Both the position numbers and the translations under genes were made by a program. From Rufibacter ruber (lineage in GTDB: Bacteria; Bacteroidota; Bacteroidia; Cytophagales; Hymenobacteraceae): a stretch of DNA of 64,000 bases. The DNA is taken from the NCBI RefSeq assembly GCF_001647275.1, contig NZ_LRMM01000004.1, positions 1 to 64,000 of the forward strand. The letters are read 5' to 3'. Below the pieces are notes generated by a model. That model did no database searches. It was not told the origin of the DNA and saw only the letters and a program-made list of their open reading frames with translations. Positions 38,682-41,120 of this stretch are shown here, in pieces. Positions within the stretch are counted from its first letter, which is position 1, and the number at the start of each line of letters is the position of its first letter.

Positions 38682-39191
38682 TTAGCTAGAAATGCGAATC
38701 ATTTCTTCAATACACTTTTCTGCTTCTTCTTTGCTGATGCCGTGGTAGAAGTCTTGTACCAGCGGGTGGTCAAAATCTTCATGCGGGAAAACTGCTGGTC
38801 TTTTGTTGTCTGCTTGGGTAACCACTGTTGATGGAACCTGCATCACGTCTTCTTCATAGCCCATTAAATGATTACAGACATACCCGAAGTAAGACGCCTC
38901 ATGCTCCTCATTGTGGTAATTCTTCTGATAATCAAGGAAGGTCTTTTCACTCACTGACACCCAAAGTCCATAATCTAAATCCTCACAGTGGTCATTCACG
39001 GGAATGGTCATGACTACTCTAATGAACCGATCTGTCTGGTCCTCATAAGTAATTGTGCAGAAGTCTCCTTCCAGCCAGCCTATGGTTTCTTTCTTTTCTT
39101 CAGTGAGGTTGTTGTAGTGCCACGGCGAAGAATAAGCTAAGGCTGGCCAGTTGTCATGTTCTTGGCCGCAGGTGGAACAGGTGTAGGGCAT
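38682..39191 (-). CDS. DUF2199-domain protein
   Basis: A 169-residue soluble protein starting MPYTCSTCGQEHDNWPALAY. CxxCG and the following H suggest a small zinc-binding knuckle, as in DUF2199 proteins. EEKKETIGWLEGDFCTITYE, RFIRVVMTIPVNDHCEDLDY and GLWVSVSEKTFLDY fit the family core. Its start lies 16 bp after the PIN-domain gene stop, in the same direction, so it may be the last gene of the AT-rich operon. Function is unknown. GC is intermediate between the islet and the flanking genes. Confidence 0.82.
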   Translation of the reverse strand: MPYTCSTCGQEHDNWPALAYSSPWHYNNLTEEKKETIGWLEGDFCTITYEDQTDRFIRVVMTIPVNDHCEDLDYGLWVSVSEKTFLDYQKNYHNEEHEASYFGYVCNHLMGYEEDVMQVPSTVVTQADNKRPAVFPHEDFDHPLVQDFYHGISKEEAEKCIEEMIRISS

Positions 39192-39207
39192 CGATAGAGC
39201 CGATAAA

Positions 39208-39807
39208 CTATTTATTAATTTGAAATTCTAAGAGGCTTTTATTACAAGTAAGTATAGGAATATCTGGGAAAGCAAAGTCGCCATCATGAGTAACTATTGC
39301 ATATTGATTGATAATACAAAAGTTATAATAAATGGTATCATTAAAATCAGAATCAGGAGTTATGTTCATTAGAGTTTGCATAGAGTCAATCTGCTCTAGC
39401 CCACTATCATTAAACTCTATGTAGGAAGCATATGCAGCTAAGTCATCTTTAAAGCTTTCCAGTGAATTTTGATAGTCTTGAGTAGTTCGGTAATCTTTTT
39501 TAAAATCTAGTTTGTTAATCCCCTTTTCGTCAAGTTTCCTACTCTCCAAAAGTTCGTTTTTATAAACTGCGAATCTTATTCTTAGATACCTATTGAGAAT
39601 CTCAGAAAGTAGCAATGTATTAACTACTGCCACCTTCTTGTCTGTAGTCTTCTCAATTAGTATCCTCCAAAAGTTGAGATATGCTTCTTCGTAATACTTT
39701 GGTTGGAGTGGAGGGTTTAATATCCATAGCCACACATTAGCATCAAAAAAATAAAGCCGGTTGCCCGGCTTAGATTTTCTTATGTCAAAAATTTTAAATT
39801 TACTCAT
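39208..39807 (-). CDS. PIN-domain protein, putative nuclease
   Basis: A 199-residue protein with PIN-like acidic residues: LYFFDANVWLWIL near residue 20 (first Asp), TLLLSEILNRYL near 65 (Glu), PDSDFNDTIYYNFC near 155 (Asp) and AIVTHDGDFAFP near 175 (Asp). These match the usual four-carboxylate Mg2+ site of RNases such as VapC, though the protein is longer than VapC toxins. The start ATG overlaps the DUF4325 gene by 8 bp, so the two are probably translationally coupled. It is AT-rich (for example only 22 of 60 bases are G or C at 39241-39300). Nuclease activity is an inference. Confidence 0.8.
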   Translation of the reverse strand: MSKFKIFDIRKSKPGNRLYFFDANVWLWILNPPLQPKYYEEAYLNFWRILIEKTTDKKVAVVNTLLLSEILNRYLRIRFAVYKNELLESRKLDEKGINKLDFKKDYRTTQDYQNSLESFKDDLAAYASYIEFNDSGLEQIDSMQTLMNITPDSDFNDTIYYNFCIINQYAIVTHDGDFAFPDIPILTCNKSLLEFQINK

Positions 39808-40147
39808 GTATCCCTAACTCTTGATTTCGAGCATTTTCTCTGATTTCTCTTGCTTTTGGGTCTAAAGCAAGTTTATAAATTTCATTTACTTTATTCAGAA
39901 TAGCTCTATTATCAATACCATTTAATTCGATAGCGGATTTTGCCTCTTCTGGTTGAGGAGTAGATAATAAAAATCTACCAAGTGCAGCATTCAAGAAAGC
40001 AGATGTAACGTGACGCAATCCTTCAAATGAAAGCACAATCTTCTCATGTGGCTTATAAGACTCTTGAAGCTTTTCATAAACTTTCAAGCCGTCTACATCC
40101 AGTACAGCAATTTGTTTGCCTATAATTTGAGCAATGCTTAACTGCAT
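39800..40147 (-). CDS. DUF4325 STAS-like domain protein
   Basis: A 115-residue protein. KIVLSFEGLRHVTSAFLNAA then LGRFLL near residue 36 matches the core of DUF4325, a STAS-like fold related to anti-sigma factor antagonists. Preceding strands include IGKQIAVLDVDGLKVYEKLQ, and a charged helical tail ends AREIRENARNQELGIHE. There is no clear Ser at the place phosphorylated in SpoIIAA, though VTSAFLN offers Thr and Ser. The GHKL ATPase gene is 76 bp upstream and the PIN gene overlaps its end. In known partner-switching systems a kinase of the GHKL type acts on a STAS protein. That this occurs here is inferred. Confidence 0.82.
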   Translation of the reverse strand: MQLSIAQIIGKQIAVLDVDGLKVYEKLQESYKPHEKIVLSFEGLRHVTSAFLNAALGRFLLSTPQPEEAKSAIELNGIDNRAILNKVNEIYKLALDPKAREIRENARNQELGIHE

Positions 40148-40223
40148 AACTTTCTTAATAAATGGTGGTTGGGGGTTATGAGAAGGTTTGCAAACCTAAT
40201 CAAAATTGATATACGAAGCAATA

Positions 40224-41057
40224 CTACCCACAGTTGTATATAAGATGTATCGTAGTGCCAACAAATTCAGGTACATCTCTTGTTCCCATTTCTCCTAAGT
40301 TGTTTCCCCAGTACGCACCTCCAGTTATAATGTTGAAGGCACCACCTGCATTCTTGCAATGTTCTAACAAGTGATACAGCCCCAATCCTCCTGTCTGCAT
40401 TTCACCTTTTGTCGTGTGCCCATAACCTAAGGACCATTCAATCGCATCTTTTGCATTGGAAATAGCTCCATTAGTAAATGTTTGAATTGGAGGTAAGAAT
40501 CCTTGGCCTAAATCTACTATAGTAAAATTAAGCTTCGCTTTGCTTGGATAATATTGCCCACAAGCGAATACAGGGTCAGTTGTGGCTGCATGTTTTTGAA
40601 TGTTGGAGAATAACTCAAGAAATTGTTCATCTAAACCTTCGCATTTTAAGCTAGCCATCTGAGGATGGTTTAACAAATCTCCTTCAATGTATTCATAGAA
40701 TTTGACATCATCACATGGATGAAAAAGTTCAGACCTTACTGTAGAGCGGGCATTATCAGATAAGGTCAAGAGACTAGACAGAAAGCCGTTCCTGAATAGA
40801 ATTGGACATTTGCCTTTTACAAGTTCAACATCAAGGCTAAATGTTAGGTTGTTTTCTGTGCTAAGTCTGTAGAGGATAGCTTGAAGAAGTGCACACAGAT
40901 TTGCGTCAAACCAATACAAAGGTTCGAAGTCAATAAAAATATTGATATTTTGATAGGAAGCACATTTTTGATAAAAGTTGATTAAGCTCCAATAGCCGGC
41001 AGGGGAAGTTGTTATCTTTCCTGCAAGGGCAATTGAAACAGTGTTAGCAACTTCCAC
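40224..41057 (-). CDS. GHKL-type ATP-binding protein with STAS-like N-terminal part
   Basis: A 277-residue soluble protein. Residues about 50-95 (INIFIDFEPLYWFDANLCAL then LQAILYRL) have a STAS-like strand-helix pattern. The GHKL ATPase site is complete: FLELFSNIQKHAATTDP (N box), FTIVDLGQGFLPP (G1) and KGEMQTGGLGLYHLLEHCK (G2). There is no phospho-acceptor His domain or membrane segment, so it resembles an anti-sigma-type kinase or a Hsp90-like ATPase more than a sensor kinase. It is the first gene of the AT-rich operon. The start used is GTG at 41057; in-frame ATT/TTA codons upstream make the exact start uncertain. Confidence 0.85.
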   Translation of the reverse strand: MEVANTVSIALAGKITTSPAGYWSLINFYQKCASYQNINIFIDFEPLYWFDANLCALLQAILYRLSTENNLTFSLDVELVKGKCPILFRNGFLSSLLTLSDNARSTVRSELFHPCDDVKFYEYIEGDLLNHPQMASLKCEGLDEQFLELFSNIQKHAATTDPVFACGQYYPSKAKLNFTIVDLGQGFLPPIQTFTNGAISNAKDAIEWSLGYGHTTKGEMQTGGLGLYHLLEHCKNAGGAFNIITGGAYWGNNLGEMGTRDVPEFVGTTIHLIYNCG

Positions 41058-41091: not shown

Positions 41092-41120
41092 AAAAGGAGG
41101 CCGTTTCCAGCCTCCTTTTT
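41092..41120. terminator. terminator of nrdA
   Basis: AAAAGGAGGCC, loop GTTTCCA, GCCTCCTTTTT. It lies 25 bp past the nrdA stop codon and ahead of the ATPase gene. Confidence 0.88.

Follow-up and report, generated by a model that had tools for sequence, protein, structure and literature searches.

A three-gene operon was analysed at positions 39208-41057 of a 64,000-nucleotide stretch of Rufibacter ruber DNA (contig NZ_LRMM01000004.1), the whole of which is called the window here. The operon is very probably a VapKSC system, consisting of a STAS-GHKL kinase (VapK), a STAS antitoxin (VapS) and a PIN ribonuclease (VapC), and the kinase-STAS-PIN gene order of that system is present in the window. 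Chambers et al (EMBO J, 9 June 2026) described CapK/CapS and the three-gene relative vapKSC (PMC13373217). In Escherichia sp. E4736, VapC was toxic and VapS suppressed the toxicity, while VapS S48E gave neither protection nor co-purification with VapC. Escherichia VapKSC protected against phage Bas42 by about 2 logs, an effect abolished by VapC D28A, VapS S48A or VapK F54A, and the VapSC crystal structure from Escherichia was deposited as PDB 9Z7O (PMC13373217). A preliminary description of the window had proposed a defence-type operon, in accordance with this experimentally studied system; the combination, which it did not recognise as a named one, was already named VapKSC (PMC13373217).

The relation to the Escherichia proteins was established using family profiles. 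These matched the VapS chain (E 8.4e-25) and the VapC chain (E 5.5e-13) of 9Z7O, which were the sole biologically related PDB matches, and in the family-profile alignments to 9Z7O the window VapS residue S49 aligned with Escherichia S48 and the window VapC residue D22 with D28. VapS matched Pfam DUF4325 (PF14213; E 4.9e-9). VapC matched Pfam PIN with E 3e-4, just under the curated cut-off, and its AlphaFold2 model (predicted local distance difference test score, pLDDT, 94) matched VapC toxin structures. The acidic PIN positions reported earlier are present in the window and passed the check among homologues, as D22, E69, D154, D157 and D175 were invariant in all 88 sequences of a deeper alignment. 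A terminator-like hairpin with a T run behind it was also observed on the sense strand at window positions 39754-39771, about codons 13-18 of vapC; it could lower toxin expression relative to vapS, and patterns of this kind are not rare in shuffled sequence.

The window ATPase itself gave no Pfam match, while its homologues matched HATPase_c. The PDB search with the VapK sequence returned no direct match and fold comparison was used instead; the AlphaFold2 model (mean pLDDT 90) showed a Foldseek match to the anti-sigma kinase SpoIIAB with probability 1.00. The N, G1 and G2 boxes read earlier are present and nearly invariant among homologues, residues E148, N152, H156, G184 and G224 being identical in 62/62 aligned sequences. 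The STAS half was indicated by an N-terminal alpha/beta part in the model and by weak matches, one of a homologue to STAS_2 and one to RsbS. W49, a conserved aromatic at a plausible position in the alignment of window-family homologues, is the probable counterpart of the residue contacting single-stranded DNA (ssDNA), CapK W68 or Escherichia VapK F54. The whole-genome search revealed one VapK and one DUF4325 in the window genome. The domain content also bears on a CapKS-type transcriptional switch, where kinase and STAS protein would regulate neighbouring genes with PIN as regulated cargo only. Of the relatives that use this kinase-STAS chemistry, CapK and CapS are the closest (PMC13373217); however, the ORF (open reading frame) and AlphaFold2 model of VapK comprise STAS and GHKL domains and lack the N-terminal helix-turn-helix (HTH) of CapK, the 115-residue VapS has DUF4325 as its sole Pfam match with no CapKS-type winged helix, and PIN follows in nearly every locus, which makes such a switch very improbable.

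The identification as VapKSC was further supported by the distribution of homologues. The window PIN protein was searched against 395 Bacteroidota genomes and matched in 14, including the window's own. Among the 13 matches outside the window genome, L010 is cut by a contig end and was left out; the order ATPase, DUF4325, PIN was kept in 12/12 intact loci. When 84,980 species genomes and IMG/VR were scanned with the profile, 80 and 6 further loci were obtained, respectively, from Bacteroidota, Proteobacteria, Chlorobi, Planctomycetes, Cyanobacteria, Firmicutes, Methanosarcina and viral contigs. In 84 of these 86 loci DUF4325 immediately precedes PIN, and in the other two the contig ends no more than about 150 bases from the start of PIN; the ATPase was upstream of the DUF4325-PIN pair in 59. 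The genes are found together well outside the circle of close relatives, so that the refuting condition set in the preliminary description did not apply, and the DUF4325-PIN order holds in bacteria and archaea. These results place VapKSC, published in June 2026, in the Bacteroidota, with family members in archaea and cyanobacteria and on phages and plasmids, and Pfam DUF4325 can be used to track the family, a link not made in the text of PMC13373217. PADLOC and NCBIfam scans of the window genes gave no usable match; a PADLOC DrmA model (1750 positions) hitting the GHKL region of VapK was set aside with less than one tenth of the model covered. Plasmid and phage collections searched for Escherichia VapKSC yielded no useful match, and the literature on DUF4325 together with PIN yielded nothing relevant. 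The features of the locus are summarized in the table.

Table. Features of the VapKSC locus and its borders in window coordinates.
Feature	Position	Strand	Basis or remark
VapK gene (ATPase)	40224-41057	-	ORF, 277 amino acids, GTG start; N-terminal STAS-like domain and GHKL kinase domain
VapS gene (DUF4325)	39800-40147	-	ORF, 115 amino acids; STAS antitoxin
VapC-like PIN-domain RNase toxin gene	39208-39807	-	ORF, 199 amino acids; start overlaps vapS stop by 8 base pairs
DUF2199 gene	38682-39191	-	ORF; Pfam
VapK W49 codon	40911-40913	-	Aromatic in 53/62 sequences at this column
VapS S49 codon, predicted phosphoacceptor	40001-40003	-	Aligned with Escherichia VapS S48
VapC D22 codon, catalytic aspartate	39742-39744	-	Aligned with Escherichia VapC D28; invariant in 88/88
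Intrinsic-terminator-like hairpin ending nrdA	41092-41119	-	Conserved upstream border of the islet

The ORF coordinates agreed with the four minus-strand genes of the preliminary description, and with its 8-base-pair (bp) DUF4325/PIN overlap and 16-bp gap from PIN to DUF2199. The wording tightly packed applies to the DUF4325/PIN end only, because the ATPase-DUF4325 spacing is 76 bp. The AT-rich islet was likewise retained in part: the GC content is 39% for VapK, 35% for VapS and 33% for VapC, and 36% for the span 39208-41057, compared with 53% in the whole window and 55% in nrdA, while DUF2199 (45%) does not belong to it. Twelve other Rufibacter genomes share nrdA and most of them also its terminator up to window position 41092, where homology with most of them ends. 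The operon is missing at this site in 11 of the 12 and present in R. psychrotolerans. Between the window 39208-41057 and the R. psychrotolerans locus (L027:8751-10600), vapS and vapC share 97% DNA identity and vapK 82%; the lower vapK value suggests recombination or faster change of the kinase.

DUF2199 (Pfam E 3e-46) had been counted as an islet member, and its position only 16 bp after PIN would favour a four-gene system with DUF2199 as functional partner. This is the least probable of the alternatives and is hardly credible: no DUF2199 was found near any of the 12 homologous operons, its GC content is unlike that of the operon, and the R. psychrotolerans copy is shorter (110-amino-acid match). 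In addition, another Rufibacter genome (L282) carries DUF2199 some 700 bp downstream from nrdA, without an intervening operon. The operon is thus an islet adjoining a separately inherited DUF2199 gene.

Several points weigh against the VapKSC assignment or its functional transfer to the window. A single-sequence search with the window VapC did not match 9Z7O, so that the link needs the family profile; VapK activation by ssDNA is without biochemical demonstration even in Escherichia (PMC13373217); the mechanism of the window copy would be carried over by homology; and the ten window neighbours within about 10 kb include no recognised defence gene. The last observation, with the location beside ribonucleotide reductase genes, would also suit a general-stress partner switch, a chromosomal regulator with no anti-phage role. 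This remains unlikely, though clearly less so than the transcriptional switch, as homologues are embedded in Hma and restriction-modification (RM) loci and also occur on phage contigs and on a plasmid, the AT-rich islet is missing from most other Rufibacter genomes at this site, and Escherichia VapKSC protects against phage Bas42 (PMC13373217). Of the 289 operons in the study of Chambers et al, 36% had a defence gene no more than 10 kb away (PMC13373217).

Defence genes were found beside homologues. The commonest neighbour families, named from one representative per neighbour cluster, were HmaA and HmaB/HmaC, type I RM and type III RM. Hma neighbours were found at 10 loci in total, counting Hma-like helicase loci with a PglX-type methylase, and VapKSC repeatedly lies next to HmaA and HmaB genes or is enclosed by them, as at L100:4015-13740 and at nine other Hma-type loci. 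Type I RM neighbours were found at L043, L063 and L067 and in a divergent clade (L144, L146, L147, L151), and type III RM neighbours at L028, L029 and L045. Because insertion in Hma and restriction loci recurs, VapKSC there suggests a back-up suicide switch, triggered when front-line DNA defences act or fail. The divergent DUF4325-PIN clade, mostly full VapKSC, lies beside hsdM and hsdS (genes read by eye), a position that by analogy recalls the anticodon nuclease PrrC. Complete operons were also found on viral contigs beside phage genes (lysin, portal and capsid, recognised by eye), and a complete copy on a Deinococcus plasmid. In Streptococcus phage Javan172 (L283, 3126-5168) a VapK homologue and, after it, a 114-amino-acid hypothetical gene lie between a regulator and the integrase. 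No PIN is annotated there, and this arrangement may link prophage control to DNA damage.

The window copy is inferred to work like Escherichia VapKSC, with ssDNA as signal and RNA as target. The VapC PIN RNase would be made together with VapS, whose binding would keep it inactive. A damage signal, probably ssDNA from phage infection or DNA damage, would activate VapK, a GHKL serine/threonine kinase, which would phosphorylate VapS at S49; phosphorylated VapS would release VapC, and the freed VapC would cut cellular RNA and stop growth. The basis in the present analysis is family membership, operon conservation, conserved catalytic and phosphoacceptor residues, the VapK and VapC folds, and an islet missing from most relatives. 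The SpoIIAB/SpoIIAA-like switch controlling a PIN RNase, as first suggested, stands in its core idea and matches VapKSC (PMC13373217); it needs the correction that the kinase targets the antitoxin, so setting the toxin free, and does not sequester a sigma-type target.

The phosphoacceptor was then compared between loci with and without the kinase. VapS position 49 was S or T in 59/59 loci with adjacent VapK, and the phosphoacceptor was lost in 17 of the 18 assessable VapS-VapC loci without an adjacent kinase (primary set). The 18 comprise 14 archaeal loci of Methanosarcina type, all with Pro at this position, two cyanobacterial loci with Arg, L058 with Ala, and L050, which has Ser. Pairs lacking adjacent VapK and carrying Pro, Arg or Ala include L056, L060, L069, L058, L084 and related loci. 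The 14 Methanosarcina-type loci adjoin a LigD 3'-phosphoesterase gene (identified by Pfam in one), and the two kinase-free cyanobacterial loci have a GAF histidine kinase upstream. The whole-genome search found VapK in 3/15 genomes, namely two Methanosarcinaceae that also carry a complete VapKSC at a separate locus, and the genome of L050, where VapK lies on another contig. In a wider cyanobacterial survey, L207 and L208 had no VapK genome-wide and kept the serine, which was also kept in L215 and L219 with broken kinases. The strict rule that absence of the kinase means loss of the phosphosite was rejected, and because of L207 and L208 the loss rule is one-directional.

The 14 Methanosarcina loci represent one lineage, and a Fisher contrast ignoring kinship was not used as evidence. 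About three independent phosphosite losses, all in loci without VapK, speak for the phosphorylation model but are no proof of it. The VapS phosphoacceptor has been called absolutely conserved in a search made with VapK (PMC13373217); kinase-free loci would escape that survey because VapK was the query. VapS without the phosphosite, seen only in loci that lack an adjacent kinase, offers a natural test of the phosphorylation model, and replacement of the phosphosite only in kinase-free loci would imply a different release mechanism there. With somewhat less than even confidence, it is proposed that the kinase and STAS pair is a general switch with an exchangeable effector and that VapSC can evolve away from the kinase.

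Other DUF4325 architectures were also found. DUF4325 was above cut-off in 61 of the 395 Bacteroidota genomes, and loci without a window-type PIN contained divergent PIN genes, single-gene proteins joining winged HTH, HATPase and DUF4325, or membrane-protein operons. In four ATPase-DUF4325 operons (L154:4075-6028, L156:3875-5893, L159:3444-5396 and L169:2229-4048), with overlapping or near-adjacent ORFs, the third gene encodes a small protein for which one or two transmembrane segments are predicted, and one of these proteins gave a sub-threshold SLATT_4 match. Such DUF4325-kinase pairs, with a small membrane protein in place of PIN, may be effector-swapped forms of the switch and possibly unnamed defence systems; they are a lead only, because the partner ATPases in three of the four were unrecognised by Pfam. 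L149, L150 and L152 encode single proteins of about 340-370 amino acids with DUF4325 at the C-terminal end, L149 joining winged-helix, GHKL and DUF4325 domains; these forms are common in one genus of the Bacteroidota sample.

The window system was finally compared with known systems. It has the same three genes, order and domains as Escherichia VapKSC, with matching phosphosite and catalytic residues, but it belongs to a divergent clade with about 20% identity to the restriction-linked clade resembling the Escherichia proteins, lies in the Bacteroidota with no defence gene recognised nearby, and is known here from sequence. CapK/CapS share the STAS-GHKL kinase and phosphorylatable STAS partner (PMC13373217), whereas the winged helix of the DNA-binding repressor CapS and the HTH domain of CapK are both absent from the window proteins. 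VapBC toxin-antitoxin systems share the VapC-like PIN RNase fold; in the window, however, no VapB-type antitoxin lies beside vapC, a STAS protein takes the place of the antitoxin, and phosphorylation, not antitoxin decay, is the predicted means of release. SpoIIAB/SpoIIAA and RsbW/RsbV share the GHKL kinase fold and the STAS phosphoacceptor position, but the released partner in the window system would be a nuclease instead of a sigma factor, and the kinase carries its own STAS domain.
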